A stretch of 64,000 nucleotides of DNA, from contig MDLC01000004.1 in assembly GCA_001723645.1 (NCBI GenBank), positions 1-64,000 on the forward strand, in the 5' to 3' direction. This stretch comes from Candidatus Endobugula sertula (GTDB taxonomy: Bacteria > Pseudomonadota > Gammaproteobacteria > Pseudomonadales > Cellvibrionaceae). Positions 2,627 through 20,971 of this stretch are shown here, one piece after another (the first letter of the stretch is position 1; each line of letters starts with the position of its first letter). Made by a program: the position numbers and the translations under genes. A model generated the notes under the pieces. That model searched no databases and was not told the DNA's origin. It worked only from the letters and a program-made list of their open reading frames with translations.

Positions 2627-3283
2627 TTAAGCGCTATATTCTTCTTCACCCTGTTCAGGTAAATATCCAGCCATAGCAGCTAATAGATTTTCAGTACATT
2701 GGTTTGTAGGGCTATCATCAAATGTCATAGTTGGGCTTTCTAATTTTGCCCCTAATTCAGAAATAGCTTCGCGTATTCTCAAATGGGTCTCAAAGTTTCT
2801 AGCCAAGCGGCTTACATCATCGACTAAGACAATATAATTCTCTGCTTTGTTGGTCTCCAAGAATGCCAGCATTTTTTGTAACGATGGTCTATCCATACTG
2901 ATACCAGAAACACCATAGTCATAAAAACAGTCTGTAACGGTGTAGCCTTTAGATTTAGCAAAATCCTGACAACGCTGTTTTTGAGAATCTACGGCATTGT
3001 CTTTTTCTTGTAGATGGAGAGCGCTGCGACAATAAATAACGGCTTTTTGAGTTGAGTGATCTAATGGCATTACAGGGCATCCCTCCGTCTTTACTACATA
3101 ATTATCATCTAGCGTTTGCTCGATAGTGCAACGAACAGCACTTAAGATCAAGCCAATATCATCCTCGTTACCGTGAATCATGTTTTGAATAGTCTCTTCG
3201 CTATCGGCTAAATCTTGTAACATAGAGCCATACATTTTCATGTAAGCTTGATACGCCTTTTTAAGTTCTGCTTGAGTTGTCAT
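2627..3283 (-). CDS. Serine-recombinase-like protein lacking the usual catalytic serine
   Basis: The 218-residue protein has about 75 residues of unrecognised, acidic N-terminal sequence, then a resolvase-fold domain: AVIYCRSALHLQEKDNAVDS, FYDYGVSGISMDRPSLQKML and VLVDDVSRLARN. In active serine recombinases the first motif reads YxRxS; here the aligned serine position is alanine (YCRSA), unless the neighbouring serine has taken over. The protein ends shortly after the domain, with no DNA-binding helix-turn-helix or zinc ribbon. Its start lies 23 bases inside the end of the upstream resolvase gene, so the two are coupled. It may be an inactive partner or regulator of the neighbouring recombinase; that is inference. 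Confidence 0.7.
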   Translation of the reverse strand: MTTQAELKKAYQAYMKMYGSMLQDLADSEETIQNMIHGNEDDIGLILSAVRCTIEQTLDDNYVVKTEGCPVMPLDHSTQKAVIYCRSALHLQEKDNAVDSQKQRCQDFAKSKGYTVTDCFYDYGVSGISMDRPSLQKMLAFLETNKAENYIVLVDDVSRLARNFETHLRIREAISELGAKLESPTMTFDDSPTNQCTENLLAAMAGYLPEQGEEEYSA

Positions 3284-3866
3284 TACTAAAAATCCTTTTC
3301 TGATCTGAGGTGTATTGATTTAGGGTACGACTGAGAGTACGCGGGGAAATACCAAACCATTCGGCAATTTCCGCATGTGTAATTCCCCCCTGTGCTTTCA
3401 TGGCAACTACCGTACAAATATCATCATCTGATAATTTACGGGGGCGGCCTAAATGCTTGCCGCGCTGCCTTGCTGCTGCCATTCCTGCTTTGGTACGTTG
3501 GCGAATAAGCTCACGCTCATATTCCGCAAATAGGGCAAGCTGCCCATAGAAAATACGCCCCTCTGGTGTGTCTGTATTGATGCCTTGGGTGATAGAAACA
3601 AAATCAATATTCTTACTGCGAAAATCATCCAGTAGTAACAATAAATGGATAGTAGAACGTCCCAAACGGTCAAATTTCCAGACGACAAAGGTATCATCAG
3701 GCTTAAGATCGGCAAGCACCTCATCTAGCCCTTTGCGTTGAACAATCGCGCCCGATGTTCCATGATCGCCATAGATTTTTTCGCAACCCGCTTCATTCAA
3801 GGCATCAATTTGTAATGCTTCGTCTTGGTCATCGTCAGACACGCGGTAATAACCAATCACTGCCAT
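3261..3866 (-). CDS. Small serine resolvase/invertase (Hin/Pin/TnpR type)
   Basis: The 201-residue protein has the complete resolvase/invertase layout. The catalytic serine lies in GYYRVSDDDQ near residue 10, followed by VVWKFDRLGRS, the GRIFYGQLALFAEYERELI E-helix region and GKHLGRPRKLSDDD. It ends in a helix-turn-helix (HAEIAEWFGISPRTLSRTL). Such enzymes invert or resolve DNA between two short sites. It is read towards lower coordinates and overlaps the start of the serine-recombinase-like gene. A perfect 16-bp inverted repeat lies immediately upstream and is a candidate site of action. The catalytic residues look intact. Confidence 0.88.
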   Translation of the reverse strand: MAVIGYYRVSDDDQDEALQIDALNEAGCEKIYGDHGTSGAIVQRKGLDEVLADLKPDDTFVVWKFDRLGRSTIHLLLLLDDFRSKNIDFVSITQGINTDTPEGRIFYGQLALFAEYERELIRQRTKAGMAAARQRGKHLGRPRKLSDDDICTVVAMKAQGGITHAEIAEWFGISPRTLSRTLNQYTSDQKRIFSNDNSSRT

Positions 3867-5952: not shown

Positions 5953-7080
5953 ATGAGGGATCGTGAAGCATCAGAATTAGTAACGAAAGAGATTATTGAA
6001 GAACTGAATGAGTTACGCTTGCGTACAGGGATTGGTGCGTCTGCGTTGCTTCGGGGGCAGCGTCGCAATACGCCTTCTGGTCTACGTTCATGCACTATTA
6101 CACGGTGGTTAAATGGCAAGACTAAAACGGCGCGCAAAGATCATATTGATTTCGTTTTAACGCTCTGGCGTTCCAAACTGGACAATGACCATAAGCGTAT
6201 TGAATTAACGCCTGCATATAAAGAAAAATTAACATCTTGTCGTGATCGTAGCGGTGTTGGCTCAACAAAGCTATTTAAGCAGTTAAAACAACCACCCAAG
6301 GGACTCACAGCCGCCATGATTGAACGATGGTTGGCGGACGATGTGCTGACCGTGCGAGAAGATCACCTAAAGTGTGTACTTAATGAGTGGGAAAAATTAG
6401 CCTTATCACCTACGCATCATCAAATTACTGCCTCATTGAAGGAAGAACTCAACGACTATAAAGTACGCTGCTACCTCGGCACACAGAGCTTGTTTAATCT
6501 ATGTGAGGATATACCAGAAGGCTTAACGTTTCATATGGTATCGGGCTGGTTAGATGGCAGTATTCAATCAGCGCATATAGATCATATCGCGTTTATTAGA
6601 GAGGCTTGGAAAGGTATTTGTAAAAAGAGGCAAGAGCAATTTTTATCATTAGACGATAAGCCCACATTTTTTAAGACTATCGAAAAATATCGTCGCTTGA
6701 TGTTTTTGCCCGGTAAAATATTTTTACAGGCCAATCATATACCTGATGGCCTAAGCCCTCACACGATTAATCACTGGTTCAAAAAACCTGCTGGTGCTAT
6801 CAGACAAGATTATGTGGATTGGGTTATTGAACGATGCAAGGCATTGGAGCAAGACGACACCAGAGTGATTATATTGACTGATGACATGATCCAAGCGCTT
6901 GATATTGAGCGTGCCCGCAGCGGCTCAGGGGCAAGCAAGCTATTTAATCAGATTGATAATATACCGGATGGTATAAAAATGCCGACCATTTCACGCTGGA
7001 TCAACGGCTACGCAAAAACCATTCGTAAAGACCATTATGATTTTATCTTAGCGGCTTGGAAAACTTTACCGGATAAATAG
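5953..7080 (+). CDS. Five-repeat protein built from tandem HTH-like modules
   Basis: From the ATG at 5953 the product has 375 residues. A TTG at 5884 would add 23 hydrophobic residues and seems less likely. The whole protein is five imperfect repeats of 73-76 residues. Each repeat has a helix with a (S/T)GxGxxxLF-like motif, a loop PxGL, a WL-containing helix and a DH-containing helix. The helix tryptophans are W52, W126, W199, W275 and W349, followed 11 residues later by D63, D137, D210, D286 and D360. The motifs TITRWLNGKTK and TISRWINGYAK resemble the recognition helix of Cro/C1-type regulators, so the protein may be a chain of DNA-binding modules. I know no named family with this design. 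It converges on the J-domain gene. Confidence 0.8.
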   Translation: MRDREASELVTKEIIEELNELRLRTGIGASALLRGQRRNTPSGLRSCTITRWLNGKTKTARKDHIDFVLTLWRSKLDNDHKRIELTPAYKEKLTSCRDRSGVGSTKLFKQLKQPPKGLTAAMIERWLADDVLTVREDHLKCVLNEWEKLALSPTHHQITASLKEELNDYKVRCYLGTQSLFNLCEDIPEGLTFHMVSGWLDGSIQSAHIDHIAFIREAWKGICKKRQEQFLSLDDKPTFFKTIEKYRRLMFLPGKIFLQANHIPDGLSPHTINHWFKKPAGAIRQDYVDWVIERCKALEQDDTRVIILTDDMIQALDIERARSGSGASKLFNQIDNIPDGIKMPTISRWINGYAKTIRKDHYDFILAAWKTLPDK

Positions 7081-7126: not shown

Positions 7127-7639
7127 TTATGAGTTAGACTTTTTAAGATACCTGTTTTTAACAGTAACGGGCTTACTGCTACCATATTTATCACGAATTT
7201 CATCCATTGAATACGCTCCACGGCTGGCACTGCGCCAATCACTAGGGCGAAAATACCAGCATTTCTTTTTAGAGGCATATTTAAACCCTGCGACTTTTAA
7301 TACCTCTCTATGAGTACGTGTATCACCAGACACCCAAACCCAAGCACCACAGATTTCTATATTCAGTCCGGCTAAATGAATAATAGCGTTTAGCGCAGTA
7401 TTAACAGCCTCAGAATAGTTTTCATTATTGGTCTCTGTTCCTTGCTCATTGGCAGAAACATTACCTGTATAATCTTTTAATACATCATAGGCCGCATTAA
7501 TAATCTTCATCATCTCTGCCCCTGCTGGGTTGCGGTCTGGATGGTATTCCATTGCTGCCTTTCTATAAGCAGCCTTGGCTATTTTAGGTGTAATCTCTCC
7601 AACTAACTGTAAAATCTTTGCTGCGTCTTGAATATTCAT
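7127..7639 (-). CDS. J-domain (DnaJ-like) protein
   Basis: The start chosen is the ATG at 7639, which has a good ribosome site (AGAGGAAC) and gives 170 residues; the longer open frame upstream runs into the hairpin tract and is not needed. Residues 1-60 form a J domain with the HPD motif in YHPDRNPAG, which stimulates Hsp70 ATPase. The C-terminal part has ICGAWVWVSGDTRTHREVL and KKKCWYFRPSDW, a small domain often seen in J proteins of plasmids and integrative elements. It is co-directional with the OLD gene but separated by about 250 bp of structured DNA. Its partner in the cell would be host DnaK. Confidence 0.85.
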   Translation of the reverse strand: MNIQDAAKILQLVGEITPKIAKAAYRKAAMEYHPDRNPAGAEMMKIINAAYDVLKDYTGNVSANEQGTETNNENYSEAVNTALNAIIHLAGLNIEICGAWVWVSGDTRTHREVLKVAGFKYASKKKCWYFRPSDWRSASRGAYSMDEIRDKYGSSKPVTVKNRYLKKSNS

Positions 7640-7670
7640 TTGCTGTTCCTCTTTTAAAAAAATTGATATT

Positions 7671-7880
7671 CCCCCGGAGGGCTGAAAGCCCGAATGGGAG
7701 CGAGGAACGAGCGACACGCATGTTCTTGTGTAAGACCAGAAAAAGTTATACCTCGGCGCGGGTAACACGGATAGAGGTATCAGTTTTTCTGGTCGTCACA
7801 AGGTTATGTGGCAAAATGAGGCGAAGCCTCCGGGGGATAAATAGAAATGGGGTAAAGTGCCAGCCAAAGAAATGGCTGGC
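7671..7880. other. Hairpin-rich non-coding tract between OLD and J-domain genes
   Basis: The gap holds several perfect inverted repeats. CCCCCGGAGG at 7671-7680 pairs with CCTCCGGGGG at 7827-7836. GGGCT-GAA-AGCCC is at 7679-7691. A long stem has GACCAGAAAAA at 7734-7744 and ATACCTC at 7748-7754, pairing with GAGGTAT at 7774-7780 and TTTTTCTGGTC at 7784-7794. GAGGC-GAA-GCCTC is at 7818-7830, and GCCAGCCA/TGGCTGGC is at 7859-7880. The last may terminate the upstream minus-strand genes. The tract could be an origin of transfer, a structured RNA or a regulatory leader; no known family is recognised. Confidence 0.6.
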
Positions 7881-7887
7881 GGCCTTA

Positions 7888-9807
7888 TTAATATAAGCTG
7901 TTCACTTCTTTAAACATAGCTTCAAACCTGTCTAAAGTTTCATCTGAAAAATAGTCAGAATCAAGCTGCATACTTAATAAACGTTGGGAAGGCTTATAAT
8001 GATTAAAATCGTTACCACTACGCATGGCCTTCAATTGAAGTAGTATTGTTGGCTTTTTCTTATCCAGATCGGAGACTTTTATCCCCTTATGATCAGGAAA
8101 CACTTCTTCAAATATTCCAAGGTATTCAGCTTTTTCAAATATATCTTCAATGTCTGCTTTATCATAATCATCTCCAGCAAATTCATCAAAAAATCTAACA
8201 TGCTTATCTTTGATAATTTTGGATTGAATCATACCATCTAAGCGTTGCTTACCCTTGGCATTATTGAAGCTATCTAACAGGCAAGAGATATTTAATTTCG
8301 ATCCACGCAGTAATGAAATAAACGAGGTCACCTTATCCAAACCACCAACAGGTACAATGGTAATATCATCCCGTAAACCTTCACGTCCTTTACCTTCTAG
8401 AAAATTAGACATAAAGGTTAAATAGTTAAGGTCTGATGGGCCTTCAACGAGAAGATTATTTTTTGATACAAACAAATTTTGCGCAATATCATACCCAAGC
8501 GCAGCTTGAAGTGGGAATAGTGTGTCAGGGTCTTTTTCCTGTATTGCTTCTGAAATAATACTTCCATCATCTGAATCATAAACAGTTCGAACTCGATGAA
8601 GAGCATCAGATTCAACCATAAAAGGTGAGTGTGTCGAATATATTATTTGGTAACTATCAGAAAGATCATTAATAAAACGTAACAAGTCAGCCTGTGCTGA
8701 CGCATGTAAATTCAAGCCAGGCTCGTCTAGCAATAGGATAAAATTTTTATCCTTTTCATCTTGAATCTTGCTAAACCAGACAATGAATGAAAAGAACCAA
8801 TTGAAGCCTTTACTTCTGTTTTTCAATGGTAATGTAATCCGATGACGCTTATTCTTAACTCGAATATCAAGAATTTTTTCCATCTGCTGATTATGACGAT
8901 GAATTGATTCAATCTTAAATTCAATTTCAAGATTATTATTCGTTGACCAGTATTCAAATATTTGATCCGTTATTTCATTTGAAGTAGCTTCAAGTTCTGC
9001 AATAAATGATTCGAAGCTGGATGCGTTTGCTAGTTCTTCTACATCAATTACAGCCAATTCGAAAAGCGCCTTTGCTGTTTCTAGTTGTTGCTTTGTTAAG
9101 CCGTCAGTAGTTGTGTTATTTCGAATAGCGTTAATACTAATTCTTGATGGAAGTTCGTGATATTCATCAAAATACCAAAAACGAGGCAAGCGCGGACTAA
9201 TATACTTCTTAGTCACATAGGCATCAACCAGCTTTCTTTCCCAGTCATAACCTTTGCTAACAATAGTGTCTTTTATGTGTTTAATAACAGAAGCAAATTG
9301 TTCGTCTTCACCCGGTTCAGAATCAATAACAGCTTTAACAGTATCAAATTTAATAATTTTGTTTCTTGTTGTATCGTCAAAATCAAGCTTGTTTTGAAGA
9401 CCTTCGAGGTATTTTTTTTCATTACAATTTATGTGATACCACGTTCGTCCACTACCATACTTCATTGCTACAGAAAAACTATCGGTAGTTAAAACACCTT
9501 CTCCAAGATCAGCTTCGATTTGATCAATAGTTTCTTGGTCAATTTGAAATGTACAGGTTACAGGCTCAAAATCATCGCCAGATCGTTTATACTTCTTAAG
9601 TTCATTTCTAGGGTAATCTTTGACCTCATCAAATTCAAAATCTTTATCATCAGTGAAATAATTCAGCTTTGCGAGTGACTCTAAAAAAGCCGTTTTACCA
9701 CTCTCATTTTTACCAACAAGGGTGGTTACGTCACTTTCAAGTTGAACAACTTGTTCACTGGTGTAGCTTTTATATTTGTTTACTACCGCTTTTTTCAGAA
9801 TGAACAT
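7888..9807 (-). CDS. OLD-family ATPase/TOPRIM nuclease
   Basis: The ATG at 9807 follows GAGAAGGG and gives 639 residues. The N-terminal half is an ABC-type ATPase of the RecF/OLD kind, with Walker A GKNESGKT at residues 32-39 and Walker B with D-loop LLLDEPGLNLHASAQ near residue 354, followed by IIYSTHSPFMV. The C-terminal part is a TOPRIM domain with LLVEGPSDLNYL near residue 452 and CLLDSFNNAKG near 507, the acidic pair that binds metal. OLD proteins are nucleases, and several act against phage, alone or with partners. The upstream DUF3892 gene is 45 bp away and probably co-transcribed. It is not next to a GajB-like helicase, so this is not a standard Gabija pair. Confidence 0.88.
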   Translation of the reverse strand: MFILKKAVVNKYKSYTSEQVVQLESDVTTLVGKNESGKTAFLESLAKLNYFTDDKDFEFDEVKDYPRNELKKYKRSGDDFEPVTCTFQIDQETIDQIEADLGEGVLTTDSFSVAMKYGSGRTWYHINCNEKKYLEGLQNKLDFDDTTRNKIIKFDTVKAVIDSEPGEDEQFASVIKHIKDTIVSKGYDWERKLVDAYVTKKYISPRLPRFWYFDEYHELPSRISINAIRNNTTTDGLTKQQLETAKALFELAVIDVEELANASSFESFIAELEATSNEITDQIFEYWSTNNNLEIEFKIESIHRHNQQMEKILDIRVKNKRHRITLPLKNRSKGFNWFFSFIVWFSKIQDEKDKNFILLLDEPGLNLHASAQADLLRFINDLSDSYQIIYSTHSPFMVESDALHRVRTVYDSDDGSIISEAIQEKDPDTLFPLQAALGYDIAQNLFVSKNNLLVEGPSDLNYLTFMSNFLEGKGREGLRDDITIVPVGGLDKVTSFISLLRGSKLNISCLLDSFNNAKGKQRLDGMIQSKIIKDKHVRFFDEFAGDDYDKADIEDIFEKAEYLGIFEEVFPDHKGIKVSDLDKKKPTILLQLKAMRSGNDFNHYKPSQRLLSMQLDSDYFSDETLDRFEAMFKEVNSLY

Positions 9808-9852
9808 AAAAACCCTTCTCAAATTGGATTGGCTTGTATTATTGGCATATTA

Positions 9853-10083
9853 TTAGTCCTTCGCCATTTCATCCAGATTGTTACCTTTTTGGTTATCCGG
9901 ATTAGTTCGTAAATGAGACTTAGTGCCATTTTTAGGACGAACAGAGTGAGCATTTTCAATTTGCCCTTTATCAGCCATTTTCATAGCCGTTTCAACTGGG
10001 GTATATGAACTGTTCCCAGACAACTTTACTGCCGTGATATTGCCTTTGCTGTCTTGCTTCGCGTCTACAACTTTTTTACTCAT
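9853..10083 (-). CDS. Small DUF3892-domain protein
   Basis: The 76-residue product has the DUF3892 layout: an N-terminal strand pair (KGNITAVKLSGNSSYTP), a helix (ETAMKMADKGQIENAHSV) and a C-terminal strand with SHLRTNPDNQKGNNLDEMA. It is fairly basic and has no membrane segment. The function of this family is not established, though members turn up in accessory regions. It precedes the OLD nuclease gene in the same direction and probably forms an operon with it, so it is the natural candidate for a regulator or sensor of that nuclease; this is inference. Confidence 0.75.
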   Translation of the reverse strand: MSKKVVDAKQDSKGNITAVKLSGNSSYTPVETAMKMADKGQIENAHSVRPKNGTKSHLRTNPDNQKGNNLDEMAKD

Positions 10084-10265
10084 AGTGCTTGTACCTTTGT
10101 TAATTAAACCGTTATCTGGTACAGCAAACCCAGACTTACCATTACTTATTGGGGATTATGAGAGAAATTCAAGCCCTTTGATCTATGCTTCCAGCACTTA
10201 CTTTATCATAAGATTAAACCTTCGATTCTTAACGTAGAATTTAGCGCCACCTCACTTCATAGTAT

Positions 10266-10842
10266 CCAAGAACTCTTCTTGGTCGTCTCCACTGGCGAAA
10301 CAGTGGTCACGATTAAACGCTGATACGTTTACGGCATCCAATCGGCGCACGGTTGGTTGAGGAGATTGCACAAGAGGGAGCTAACGTCTCTCTTTGCTGC
10401 ATGGTTCAGTCCAGATGGAGAGGCACGTCTCCTAGTTCTGGTCGCGCTCTTGTTGGCGGGAAATGGCGCAGGTGGAGAGCGAAGTCTCCAAGCCCTGCGA
10501 GTGGTCAAACGGCGATACGTTTGGCTGGCTGATCTGGCTCGATGCCTTGATCAGCCACTAAAGCACTTGCTGAAAGCATTAATCCGGTGAGGATTAATGT
10601 CTTGAGGTTAGTGCTTTCCCTAGGGATGGAACGGGCGGGGAAACGCCCTTCCCAAGAGGTACAGGTTCGGACAAATCGGAGATTTGTACGTACATGTACA
10701 CATCTTGCGGTCATCGCAAGCCTATACAGTGTTTCACTGCCGAGGCATTATGACTTGGCTCTTGATCAGTATTGATCACACAAGCCAGTGGCGATGACGG
10801 TTACGGGGGTTGAAGCCACTATTCTTACTATTCCATAATAGT
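10266..10842. repeat. Array of perfect short hairpins in a long non-coding gap
   Basis: The 890-bp gap from 10084 to 10970 has no convincing gene. From 10266 it is packed with perfect inverted repeats: 10266-10282 (7-bp stem, 3-nt loop), 10289-10306, 10314-10331, 10338-10356, 10417-10432, 10473-10490 nested in 10467-10499, 10506-10523, 10526-10557 (9-bp stem), 10577-10599 (9-bp stem) nested in 10560-10617, 10633-10648, 10671-10687, 10704-10720, 10727-10739, 10763-10778 and 10827-10842. Four have exactly a 6-bp stem and 6-nt loop (loops GCGAAA, CTGATA, GCGAAG and GCGATA). The arms differ while size and loop are similar, so the structure rather than the sequence seems to be kept. Confidence 0.7.
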
Positions 10843-10872
10843 CCGATTTAACGAATTTTCGCTCGACACAAT

Positions 10873-10970: not shown

Positions 10971-12497
10971 ATGGCTACCCCCTCAGATAAATTAGCAGAT
11001 TCACTCGAAGCTTTGCACCAGTTACAGGGTGCGGGGGCTGTGGCTATTCGCTCTGCGGATTTGTCCCGTACTCACCGAGAGCGGTTAGTACAGAACGGCT
11101 TTTTACAGGAAGTAATGAAGGGCTGGTATATTCCTGCCCGGCCTGACGAAACCCAAGGCGAAAGCACCGCATGGTATGCGGCATTTTGGCCGTTTTGTGT
11201 GGCGTATTTGAGCCACTATAAGGGTGATGAATGGTGTTTGTCACCGGAGCAATCTATTGCCCTGCATACTGAAAACTGGACAGTACCCCAACAATTATTG
11301 GTGCGTTCCAATAAAGCCAGAAACAACGTGACACCTCTGCCACACAATACCTCTTTACTGGATATTCGCGCTACGCTACCAGAAGCCGCACAACGAACAG
11401 AAAAGAACGGTGTACAGCTCTATAACCTTGCTGCGGCGCTGGTATATTGTGGCACACAAATTTACACCCAAAACCCAACTGATATTCGCGCCGCTTTAGC
11501 AATGATAAGCGATGCCTCTGAGGTATTGGCGCTGTTACTGGAAGGCGGACATAGTGCTATTGCTGGGCGTTTAGCGGGAGCATTTAGAAATATAGGGCGT
11601 CATCAAATTGCCGATGAAATCGTGCAGACCATGCGTGCCGCCAGTTACGATGTGCGTGAGAATGATCCGTTTGAAGCCCCTTCAAGTTTAATTTTTTCAC
11701 GAAGAGAGCCCTCACCCTACGTCAACCGCATTCGCTTAATGTGGCAAGATATGCGCGAGGTGGTTATTCAGCACTTCCCCACTGCACCATTGCAGCCGAT
11801 TGATGCATCTGCCTATCGTGAGCAAATGGAAGCCATTTATGTTACCGATGCTTATCACTCACTATCTATTGAGGGTTATCGGGTAACACCAGACCTCATT
11901 CAACAGGTTCGTTCTGGTGATTGGCACCCCGATTATAAGGAGGATGATAAAAACAAACTGGATGCCCTTGCCGCTCGTGGCTACTGGCAGGCCTATCAAG
12001 CGGTGCGCGATAGCGTAGAAAAAATACTGGCGGGAGAGAATGCAGGGCAAGTCGTCAGTGATGATCACCGCGTTTGGTATCGGGAGATGTTTGCGCCCGG
12101 CGTGACTGCGGGTATTCATCAACCCTCCGATTTAGCGGGCTATCGTAATGGGGCGGTATTTATACGGCGCTCCATGCACGTTCCTCCGAGTTGCGAATCT
12201 GTACGTGATGCCATGCCCGCTTTTTTTGAGTTGCTGGCAGAGGAAGACAATGCCGCTGTGCGCGTGGTGCTAGGGCATTTTATTTTTGTGTATATTCACC
12301 CCTATATGGATGGTAACGGGCGTATGGGGCGCTTTTTAATGAATGCCATGTTAGCCAGCGGTGGCTATCCTTGGACAATTGTGCCATTGGAGAAACGTAC
12401 TGAGTATATGGAGGCACTGGAGCAAGCCAGTGTTTATCAAAATATTGGAAACTTTGCGCAGTTTATAGGTGAGCAGGTGCAAGCAACAACGGCTTAA
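10971..12497 (+). CDS. Fic-domain AMP-transferase with AbiEi-like N-terminus
   Basis: This 508-residue protein combines two parts. Residues 1-200 resemble the AbiEi/antitoxin type of winged helix, with RLVQNGFLQEVMKGWYIP and a later ALVYCG segment. Residues 260-500 are a Fic domain with the full active-site motif HPYMDGNGRMGR near 443-454; the histidine and both arginines are present. An inhibitory helix motif SLSIEG near residue 296 has the glutamate that blocks ATP, as in class II Fic proteins. Fic enzymes transfer AMP or related groups to target proteins. The gene has three direct repeats upstream and ends exactly against the convergent NTPase gene. The target is unknown. Confidence 0.87.
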   Translation: MATPSDKLADSLEALHQLQGAGAVAIRSADLSRTHRERLVQNGFLQEVMKGWYIPARPDETQGESTAWYAAFWPFCVAYLSHYKGDEWCLSPEQSIALHTENWTVPQQLLVRSNKARNNVTPLPHNTSLLDIRATLPEAAQRTEKNGVQLYNLAAALVYCGTQIYTQNPTDIRAALAMISDASEVLALLLEGGHSAIAGRLAGAFRNIGRHQIADEIVQTMRAASYDVRENDPFEAPSSLIFSRREPSPYVNRIRLMWQDMREVVIQHFPTAPLQPIDASAYREQMEAIYVTDAYHSLSIEGYRVTPDLIQQVRSGDWHPDYKEDDKNKLDALAARGYWQAYQAVRDSVEKILAGENAGQVVSDDHRVWYREMFAPGVTAGIHQPSDLAGYRNGAVFIRRSMHVPPSCESVRDAMPAFFELLAEEDNAAVRVVLGHFIFVYIHPYMDGNGRMGRFLMNAMLASGGYPWTIVPLEKRTEYMEALEQASVYQNIGNFAQFIGEQVQATTA

Positions 12498-14393: not shown

Positions 14394-14606
14394 ATGACCA
14401 CATCAGAAATCTTTTTTTACCCCGGCATTTTACTGACCAATTTACTGTTATCTATTTTTGAGTTTGCCCCTAGTGATGTTGATCCAGCACTGCATTGGGT
14501 ATTGAGCTTGATCATGTCGCTACTGGTATGGAATACCGTATTTAATGCCGCCGTTGCCATGATCAAAAAAGCGGCTGGTTTTGGCTCAAACCAAGGGCAT
14601 TATTAA
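14394..14606 (+). CDS. Small membrane protein opening the transfer cluster
   Basis: The 70-residue product has two hydrophobic stretches (FYPGILLTNLLLSIF and LHWVLSLIMSLLVWNTVF) and a short basic tail, so it should be an inner-membrane hairpin. The stop overlaps the start of the coupling-protein gene (TAATG at 14604-14608), which argues that it is a real, translationally coupled gene. I do not recognise a family. It may anchor or assist the coupling protein. Confidence 0.65.
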   Translation: MTTSEIFFYPGILLTNLLLSIFEFAPSDVDPALHWVLSLIMSLLVWNTVFNAAVAMIKKAAGFGSNQGHY

Positions 14607-16360
14607 TGCAAAATCTTGCTGAGTTACATGCCATGATCGACTCACTCTCCATAGAGCAAGTCGCGTTTATCATCGTATTTTATGGCAACCATATTGCAGC
14701 GGCACTCTTTGCACTACGCGGCATTACGGTGTTTTTAGGCCGCCATATTGGGTTTTACCACCCCGACCACTACCACCTATGGCCTCGCTTACCTTGGCGA
14801 ATTGTACTGCGTCTGTGGTTTGCACTCAAACAATGGAAAGAACGCACCTTTACCTTTGGTAAACGGGCTTCTGGCGGCTTTGCCTCGGTGCTGGCAACAC
14901 TGTGCATGATGTATAAGCCCGGTAATATTTTATTGGGTAGAGCCTATGCCTTTGGTATGCCGTTGATGCAGCCTATCGGCATCAACGTAAAGCGCCATTT
15001 GTTCATGTTCGCCATGACAGGGGGCGGTAAAACCTCGGCGCTGGTATCCATTATTTCTTGCTGGAGGGGATCGGTATTTTTAATTGATCCCAAAGCAACT
15101 ATCACCAATAGCTTACATGCGCGAGACAAGCGCCGTTGGTATGTGCTGGATTTATCCAATATCAGCACGACCGATAGTATCTGCATTAATATTTTTGATT
15201 GCCTGAAAGAAGCCATTGAACGTGATGGCATTGATGCTGCCGTATTGTGGGCATATCGAATTGCACAGTCATTAATTACCACCCCGGAGGGCGCACGCTC
15301 GCCGTACTTTTACGATATATCGCGAGGCTTTATTGCCGGATTAATTCTGCATGTGCTGACTACACATAAGGAGGATGATCATAACCTGCCTTTTCTCCGC
15401 GATTTAATTATTCAAGGCTATCGCGTCTTTAATGAGGATGGCAAAGAAGAAACCACTGCCCTTGAAGCACAAGCATTGTTACTGCGAAGTATGCGTAACA
15501 ATATGGCGTTTGATGGTGTCATTGCGGGTGCAGCAACCGCTGTAATGAATGCAGGAGGTGAAACCGGGGGCAATGTACGCTCTACTCTGCAAGAACAAAC
15601 CAAGTGGTTAGATATTCCCCTCGTTCGCTCTCGCCTCAAACACAGCGATTTATCACTATCTATTTTAAAAACAGAAAATGATTGTGTACTGAGTATTACC
15701 GCTACGGTTTTTTCTGTTCGTGAAGAACTCAGTGATTTTATTCGCCTACTAACCAATATGGTGTCGTACACCTTTGAAGCTGTCACCGAAAAGAAAGGGC
15801 AATGTTTAACCGTTGTCGATGAATTTCCCAGCCTTGGTTATAACGAGGCATTTGAAGTGCTACTTCCAGTAGCACGCTCTCATGGACAAACCTTTTTAGG
15901 CATTTCACAAGATACCGAATTACTCGAAAAATATTACCCCAAAAGTTGGGAAGGTTTTATCGGTAATGCCGATTGTGTGTATTGGATGGCAAGCAATCAT
16001 AAACGCACAAGAACCTATCTTTCCGACACACTCGGTAAAGTTTCACAAGTCGAAAAAGATAAACAATACGGTCGTAAAACTTATCGTGAAGTTGAGGTGA
16101 TGGATGCCGATCAAGTCGGTCGTTTTTTAAAACCTGAAAGTCAACGCATCATTATTACTCGTGCAGGAAAACGTGCACTCAAGTTAATCAATGATCCTTT
16201 TTTTAAAGCATTACCCGTATGGCGCTATGCCGCTGATCCTGAGTATGGCGATAGCTGGCTACGCCGCTTGGGGCGATGGCTCTTCGATAGAACACCGCTC
16301 ACAACTTCAAAACCTGTTTCATCACCCACAGAGGAAAACGACAATGACACAAGCCAATAA
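14606..16360 (+). CDS. Type IV coupling protein (VirD4/TraG/TraD-like)
   Basis: The 584-residue ATPase should dock the relaxase-DNA complex at the transfer channel. The N-terminus is membrane-associated (FIIVFYGNHIAAALFALRG). Walker A AMTGGGKTSA lies near residues 135-144 and Walker B CLTVVDEFPSLG near 400-410, followed by the conserved GISQDTELLEKYY and ITRAGKRALKL segments of VirD4/TraG ATPases. The C-terminal 25 residues are hydrophilic and unstructured. It overlaps the small membrane gene upstream and the small gene downstream, so it is the centre of a tightly packed operon. No other ATPase of a type IV secretion system is in the window. Confidence 0.88.
   Translation: MQNLAELHAMIDSLSIEQVAFIIVFYGNHIAAALFALRGITVFLGRHIGFYHPDHYHLWPRLPWRIVLRLWFALKQWKERTFTFGKRASGGFASVLATLCMMYKPGNILLGRAYAFGMPLMQPIGINVKRHLFMFAMTGGGKTSALVSIISCWRGSVFLIDPKATITNSLHARDKRRWYVLDLSNISTTDSICINIFDCLKEAIERDGIDAAVLWAYRIAQSLITTPEGARSPYFYDISRGFIAGLILHVLTTHKEDDHNLPFLRDLIIQGYRVFNEDGKEETTALEAQALLLRSMRNNMAFDGVIAGAATAVMNAGGETGGNVRSTLQEQTKWLDIPLVRSRLKHSDLSLSILKTENDCVLSITATVFSVREELSDFIRLLTNMVSYTFEAVTEKKGQCLTVVDEFPSLGYNEAFEVLLPVARSHGQTFLGISQDTELLEKYYPKSWEGFIGNADCVYWMASNHKRTRTYLSDTLGKVSQVEKDKQYGRKTYREVEVMDADQVGRFLKPESQRIIITRAGKRALKLINDPFFKALPVWRYAADPEYGDSWLRRLGRWLFDRTPLTTSKPVSSPTEENDNDTSQ

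Positions 16361-19141: not shown

Positions 19142-20971
<1,830 letters not shown>

Follow-up and report, generated by a model that had tools for sequence, protein, structure and literature searches.

Genomic setting of the array

The window analysed here is a 64,000-nucleotide stretch of contig MDLC01000004.1 of Candidatus Endobugula sertula (GenBank assembly GCA_001723645.1), and its positions 717-20910 apparently form a complete integrative mobilizable element (IME) of 20.2 kb. The features that point to such an element are a serine recombinase, a PF03432 relaxase and 16-bp att repeats at 717 and 20895, located at a tRNA-Met. The left repeat, TGGTAGCGGGGGCTGG (717-732, + strand), is an exact copy of the right one (20895-20910), which lies at the 3' end of the tRNA-Met gene that marks the integration site (20895-20971, - strand; ARAGORN and Rfam). 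A MobC-like accessory gene (854-1264, + strand), which has no Pfam match, was assigned by its operon position directly 5' of the relaxase and by homologues that precede the relaxase in other elements. It is followed by the relaxase itself, with a MobA/VirD2-like nuclease domain (1261-2568, + strand; PF03432, E 9e-15). The cargo includes an OLD-like AAA ATPase with a TOPRIM domain (7888-9822, - strand; PF13175, PF20469), which is a probable phage-defence protein, and a DUF3892 protein (9853-10083, - strand; PF13031). On the other side of the hairpin array lie a Fic-domain protein (10971-12497, + strand; PF02661), a homologue of which is also found 3' of the element at locus L018, the conjugative coupling protein T4CP of the TraG/VirD4 type (14606-16360, + strand; PF02534, PF12696) and a large serine recombinase, the integrase, which overlaps the tRNA (19142-20938, + strand; PF00239, PF07508, PF13408). 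Since a search for mating-pore (T4SS) genes between the repeats identified only the coupling protein, with two ORFs of 347 and 216 aa having no Pfam match, the island was called an integrative mobilizable element. Besides the large serine recombinase, two overlapping resolvase-type reading frames are present on the - strand at 2630-3866 of the window.

The same setting recurs around related copies of the array, where the arrangement usually runs MobC-relaxase, defence cargo, element, T4CP, large serine recombinase and tRNA. In 40-kb maps of six further copies, MobC-relaxase was found upstream in all, and T4CP and the recombinase downstream in five. Across 71 loci, T4CP is on the strand of the element in 24 of 25 cases, while upstream of the element ArdA (9/9) and HsdM (9/10) are encoded on the opposite strand. 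The relaxase shares the strand of the element in 19 of 21 cases, the two exceptions being inverted and directly beside it. Upstream neighbours are enriched in restriction and other defence genes and in ArdA, and downstream neighbours in RadC, T4CP, resolvase and NikA-like genes. A DnaJ-like gene (7130-7768 in the window, also present at L014 and L017) keeps its position, whereas the genes that separate it from the element are exchanged among related islands. Rearranged islands were seen at L076 and L134 (also L190 and L198), where MobC and the relaxase are inverted and adjoin the element; the origin of transfer may abut the element there.

Architecture of the hairpin array

The preliminary description of this DNA had reported a dense succession of perfect inverted repeats in an 890-bp gap, which lies between the DUF3892 and Fic genes, and every hairpin that it named was found where it had been placed. 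The interval 10250-10850 is by far the densest hairpin region of the window: per 600 nt it has 10 perfect hairpins (stem of 6 or more, loop of 3-9), where the window averages 1.18 and nowhere else exceeds 5, and 9 hexaloop hairpins (stem of 5 or more), where the window averages 0.56. The folding comparison suggested in that description revealed an energy excess over shuffled controls on both strands. For the + strand, the RNA minimum free energy was -252.8 kcal/mol, compared with -201.5 +/- 7.6 for dinucleotide shuffles (only 20 were used; z -6.8), and the - strand reached z -5.8 against dinucleotide shuffles. With DNA parameters, the + strand had a z of -8.6. Most stems fold locally and are arranged as a chain. 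Across 57 copies the hairpin density is 17.5 per kb, in comparison with 5.9 in the flanks and 5.5 in mono-shuffles, and the array is thus confirmed as real and not a product of chance.

The family-defining part of the window copy spans 10264-10711 on the + strand, with both ends approximate, as delimited from about 60 other copies that Blast and covariance models matched, and all of the hairpins below are given on that strand. It opens with the first conserved hairpin, CCAAGAA(CTC)TTCTTGG (10266-10282), whose family form is GCATCCAAGG..CCTTGGTCGTC (alignments A1 and A7). Two hexaloop hairpins follow, CCACTG(GCGAAA)CAGTGG (10289-10306) and TAAACG(CTGATA)CGTTTA (10314-10331), and then CCAATCG(GCGCA)CGGTTGG (10338-10356), with a pentaloop conserved in most copies, AAGAGGGA(GCTAACG)TCTCTCTT (10372-10394) and the hexaloop hairpin GGAGA(GGCACG)TCTCC (10417-10432). 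The conserved 3' core, where model R1 matches positions 10471-10711 (E 3e-20), is opened by TGGAGA(GCGAAG)TCTCCA (10473-10490), which sits within the conserved GGTGGAGAG..TCTCCAAGCCCTGCGAGTG module, and is continued by CAAACG(GCGATA)CGTTTG (10506-10523), carrying the commonest hexaloop of the family (47/190), and by a two-part hairpin, TGGCTGATC..GGCTCGATGCC..GATCAGCCA (10526-10559), with the family form TGGCTC..GGGTTCAATGCCC..GAGCCA. A 9-bp hairpin, CATTAATCC(GGTGA)GGATTAATG (10577-10599), is an extra domain missing from most other copies. The core helix GGGATGGAACGGGCG(GGGAAA)CGCCCTTCCC (10616-10656; family form GATGCAACGGGGGC(GCGCAGCGG)GCCCCCTTGC) encloses a hexaloop hairpin at 10633 with the loop GGGAAA, and the terminal hairpin CCAAGAGGTACAGG..GTACACATCTTGC (10655-10708) is where almost every copy ends on its 3' side. 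Beyond it, the window copy has an added hairpin domain closed by GTCATCG..CGATGAC (10704 to about 10800), which is common to the L018 copy and missing from most others; the hairpin CAGTG(TTT)CACTG is found at 10727.

Protein coding in the gap was considered and rejected, as the short ORFs (67-77 aa) have no Pfam-style support and the copies differ by indels. In the window copy, neither a promoter above chance nor an intrinsic terminator was found.

A family of related copies

The segment matches four further places in its own genome assembly, on three contigs, and also matches in 4 of 58 other genomes sampled as relatives. By using a conserved 20-mer of the 3' part, 27 contigs were matched in a collection of 84,980 species, mostly Rhodobacterales and Hyphomicrobiales, and all of them carry the array except L030, a chance match in a Sulfurimonas gene. 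A covariance model of the 3' core found 4 copies in the genome of the window, and detected the element in 14 of 398 sampled Pseudomonadota genomes and in 22 of 149 Rhodobacteraceae genomes, mostly as a single copy each. Among cultured Rhodobacteraceae strains, Tritonibacter mobilis A3R06 is one that carries a copy. Five or fewer of the plasmid records searched carried it, and the phage records and viral contigs searched gave no match.

Full copies share a common anatomy. They start with GCATCCAAGG(n)CCTTGGTCGTC, and their 3' part is ordered as GGTGGAGAG..TCTCCAAGCCCTGCGAGTG, GACCG(GCGATA)CGGTC, TGGCTC..GGGTTCAATGCCC..GAGCCA, GATGCAACGGGGGC(GCGCAGCGG)GCCCCCTTGCC and the terminal hairpin, which in the family reads AAGATGTG..TACTAC..CACACATCTT, followed by GCGG. 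The interior holds a variable number of hairpins, some modules being duplicated, with fixed loop types: GCGCA, GCAG, AGGAAC, CATGA(AATGG)TCATG, GCGATA and GCGAAG. Hairpin order is conserved across about 60 copies, and order, linkers and loops are conserved across genera. The family contains 190 hexaloop hairpins, at 6.6 per kb compared with 0.7 in the flanks, built on 40 distinct stems. Their loops have the consensus GNNANR: of the 190, 143 begin with G, 164 have A as the fourth base and 160 end in a purine. The loops stay while the stems vary, so that the earlier suggestion of a shape kept under changing sequence is borne out by the related copies, which place loops of the same type on many different stems.

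The preliminary description also knew of no family that would fit, and Rfam agrees: in release 15 (4227 models), nothing was found in the element at gathering score and nothing meaningful at E values up to 10, and a scan of four other loci holding copies gave nothing meaningful either. Searches of open-access papers on hairpin arrays in ICE/IMEs, on large RNAs of Rhodobacterales and on roseobacter islands found no description of it, which is weak evidence. The element family is apparently undescribed so far.

Several sequence features at and around the copies were noted. The 3' end, ...ACATCTTG|CGG, was likened to the relaxase nic consensus, YATCYTG|Y. A nic site at this position was rejected, because about one fifth of the copies read AGCTTG and are compensated in the other arm; this compensated change indicates that structure, and not sequence, is kept at the 3' end. 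Upstream of the element at L013, L026, L027, L047 and L127, perfect DnaA boxes (TTATCCACA) lie at a distance of 340-600 nt from its 3' end, the sequences of the first three being alike, and a DnaA-box origin was discarded since the boxes occur in only about 6 of 60 copies. At L025, L029, L034 and L043, the TGTAGTACA/GTACTAC palindrome of the terminal hairpin recurs in the next 60-100 bp, before the coupling-protein gene, and it may be the operator of a regulator. Upstream, the motif ACTTTATCATAA(A)G(A)TTAA is common to 10182-10240 of the window and to L014 upstream of 5548, the flanks differing otherwise; it is a possible promoter or operator. At L019, two copies in direct orientation (6232-6576 and 11183-11284), about 4.6 kb apart and one of them consisting of the 5' part only, flank four genes, as if this block had been inserted or duplicated along with the element.

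Covariation and strand preference

The covariation in related elements that the preliminary description had proposed to look for was found. In an alignment of 25 sequences and 40 pairs, 93.8% of the cells pair and 19 of the pairs changed on both sides in a compensatory manner. The covariation score was 0.263, compared with 0.098 for shuffled alignments and at most 0.076 when partners were slid, and the observed values of five covariation measures were reached by none of 500 shuffles.

The mismatches left in the stems are informative about the strand. In a loop-anchored, alignment-free count, G-T mismatches numbered 48 and A-C mismatches 5, in related copies and with kinship uncorrected, while base composition predicts about 1.5:1. 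The alignment itself, with kinship among its related copies equally uncorrected, gave 49 G-T and 11 A-C for the + strand, versus 22:31 for the - strand. Such a ratio is RNA-like, as RNase P RNA from the same bacterial family, used as a control, showed G-T:A-C mismatches of 115:11. An early hand count on 25 rows had given 13 G-T and 12 A-C, resembling double-stranded palindromes. The larger alignment and the loop-anchored count overturned this, and the loop-anchored count is preferred because it does not depend on an alignment. Folding energies favour the + strand as well: the consensus fold reaches -43.5 kcal/mol on this strand versus -32.7 kcal/mol on the - strand, and the + strand is the more stable one in 34 of 37 copies with RNA parameters (28 of 30 for the RNase P control) and in 55 of 57 copies with DNA parameters.

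The large excess of G-T over A-C and the more stable + strand thus suggest that it is most likely the + strand, in single-stranded form, that functions, as RNA or as single-stranded DNA (ssDNA). The earlier proposal of a structured RNA or a protein-recognised DNA array is in this way narrowed: a single-stranded + strand of either kind stands, while a double-stranded DNA array is disfavoured by the asymmetry between G-T and A-C.

Association with the transfer module

Among Rhodobacteraceae genomes, the element was found in 17 of the 28 with a strong match to the recombinase of the island, versus 5 of the 121 others. In six recombinase islands without the element, T4CP and relaxase were also not found in the roughly 20 kb looked at, which argues that the element is tied to the transfer module and not to integration. 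L229 is an exception, having T4CP and the recombinase in a locus where the element was not detected. Within related islands the neighbours change and the element stays, as at L014 and L017, where a 280-bp element block of 92% identity has unrelated genes on both sides.

Comparison with known systems

Closest in kind are the large ornate RNAs of phages and other bacteria, from which the element is set apart by its sequence, its architecture and the kind of element that hosts it. Phages and prophages, mobile elements as well, encode GOLLD and ROOL, two RNAs of unknown function (PMC12286853). Like these and OLE, the element extends over hundreds of nucleotides with an elaborate, covarying secondary structure; unlike them, it strings short hairpins into an open chain whose loops repeat and whose modules vary in number, resides in mobilizable islands, and has no Rfam, phage-record or viral-contig match. 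Models of all three families are part of Rfam.

In logic, though not in membership, the closest systems are CsrB, CsrC and RsmZ, which also carry many short hairpins with the same loop motif on one RNA. CsrB displays many hairpin loops that bind CsrA and is a multivalent protein platform (PMC7652899). The element differs from this group in being carried by mobile islands and in being present in Alphaproteobacteria. Sites of the CsrA family require GGA, for instance in an ANGGAN hexaloop, whereas the loops of the element read GNNANR and its sole GGA loop type, AGGAAC (9/190), does not fit ANGGAN.

With Frpo and ssi sites the element shares a single strand that folds close to genes for transfer and anti-defence, ardA among them. 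However, Frpo is a double-strand promoter mimic, the element consists of 10-15 short hairpins, and its better-folding strand would by analogy not be the expected transferred one. Integron attC sites are likewise imperfect palindromes recognised by shape beside variable cargo, but the element has a dozen hairpins with conserved loops and is accompanied by serine recombinases, no integron integrase having been seen among the neighbours scanned. The recombinases recurring near it are of the serine type, with one phage-integrase-family match among 45 downstream neighbours. As for REP, BOX and MITE-type repeats, these are also dispersed, noncoding and palindromic, BOX being modular too, yet a genome has 1-4 copies of the element, which are not scattered but keep to a set position within a single type of mobile island.

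Interpretation and alternative explanations

The explanation that we put first, tentatively and at slightly less than even confidence, is that the array encodes a large structured noncoding RNA of the IME transfer module, which would act as a multivalent platform of loops. The element is probably made as a structured RNA. The + strand would be read into an RNA of 300-600 nt belonging to the transfer module of this IME family, in which 10-15 short hairpins follow one another in a set order and a few loop types recur, the main one being the GNNANR hexaloop (GCGATA, GCGAAG, GCGAAA, GGCACG). Either one protein or the RNA itself would dock at these loops, and the resulting platform could either sequester a regulator, as CsrB does with CsrA, or scaffold a complex that times excision or transfer of the island. 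We infer transcription, a binding partner and an effect on transfer as parts of this proposal. Several points count against this explanation: the window copy shows no promoter above chance and no intrinsic terminator, the number of interior hairpins differs among copies, which is unusual for a precisely folded RNA, ssDNA tolerates some G-T pairs too, and the island at L229 has T4CP and the recombinase while the element was not detected there. Read in this way, the element would be a large RNA of mobile elements whose architecture of repeated loops is unusual. The bolder claim, namely a new class of such RNA in Alpha- and Gammaproteobacteria whose dozen near-identical GNNANR hexaloops form a docking array and a component of the conjugative transfer machinery, with an RNA thereby sharing in the mobilization of defence-island DNA, seems to us doubtful.

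The main rival, which we regard as rather unlikely but serious, places the function in DNA during conjugation, with the hairpins folding on the transferred strand and serving as priming or loading sites for the complementary strand (of the ssi or primosome type) or as a Frpo-type promoter for early genes of the leading region. The fixed orientation relative to relaxase and T4CP would fit such a role, as would the failure to find the element in recombinase islands without transfer genes, the strong DNA fold (z -8.6) and the opposite-strand ArdA (9/9) and HsdM (9/10) genes upstream, which look as if they were expressed from a site of this kind. In a few copies, perfect DnaA boxes close to the 5' end were also counted in its favour, although their presence in only about 6 of 60 copies weighs the other way. 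In RP4, the relaxase operon enters the recipient last (PMC7314908). By this analogy the transferred strand would be the - strand, whereas it is the + strand that folds better and has the G-T pairs; moreover, at L076 and L134 the MobC and relaxase genes run opposite to their usual direction with respect to the element. For the Frpo form in particular, the known structure holds the -35 and -10 in a double-strand mimic (PMC11541004), while stems of 5-9 bp are too short for a -35/-10 and the window copy has no promoter above chance. Against a role as ssDNA in general, the RP4 analogy and the two inverted relaxases are the only evidence.

The other three explanations are less probable. A cis-acting leader RNA, in which the hairpins would form a long 5' UTR of a rightward mobility transcript (T4CP or other) and control attenuation or translation, is improbable, but it agrees with several distances: T4CP starts 84-141 bp past the element at L025, L029 and L041, RadC 166-255 bp past it in three copies, and the Fic gene of the window 121 bp beyond the hairpin region. 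Many copies, however, have the next gene on the opposite strand or unrelated cargo in between, and the genes 3' of the element are of several unrelated kinds. Slightly more improbable is a DNA junction for recombination, attC-like or a block of homology, at which cargo modules would be swapped. A homology block would keep its sequence and not covarying stems, a double-stranded palindrome would show no strand preference, and the nearby recombinases are of the serine type, with no integron integrase identified among the neighbours scanned; these points stand against the variation of 5'-side cargo between related islands, the 280-bp element (92%) shared by L014 and L017 amid unrelated neighbours, and the two direct copies flanking four genes at L019. 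Finally, correction by template switching during replication can yield paired changes without selection, and the duplicated interior modules of varying number would suit a functionless repeat whose palindromes are kept perfect in this way. Such a passive origin is nevertheless very hard to credit, as different genera keep the same hairpin order, linkers and loops, G-T pairs are kept where A-C are not, and the genomic place is fixed.

Biological significance

Large structured RNAs of bacteria are few, and most have no function assigned. The element occupies a constant position next to the transfer genes, in islands whose cargo includes restriction and other systems of phage defence, and it is an easily searched marker for such islands. 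The repeated loop should ease the fishing out of a binding partner. Should the element have a role in transfer, the movement of these islands would involve an RNA or a folded single strand of DNA. Either outcome, RNA or ssDNA, would give a handle on widespread and little-studied mobile elements.
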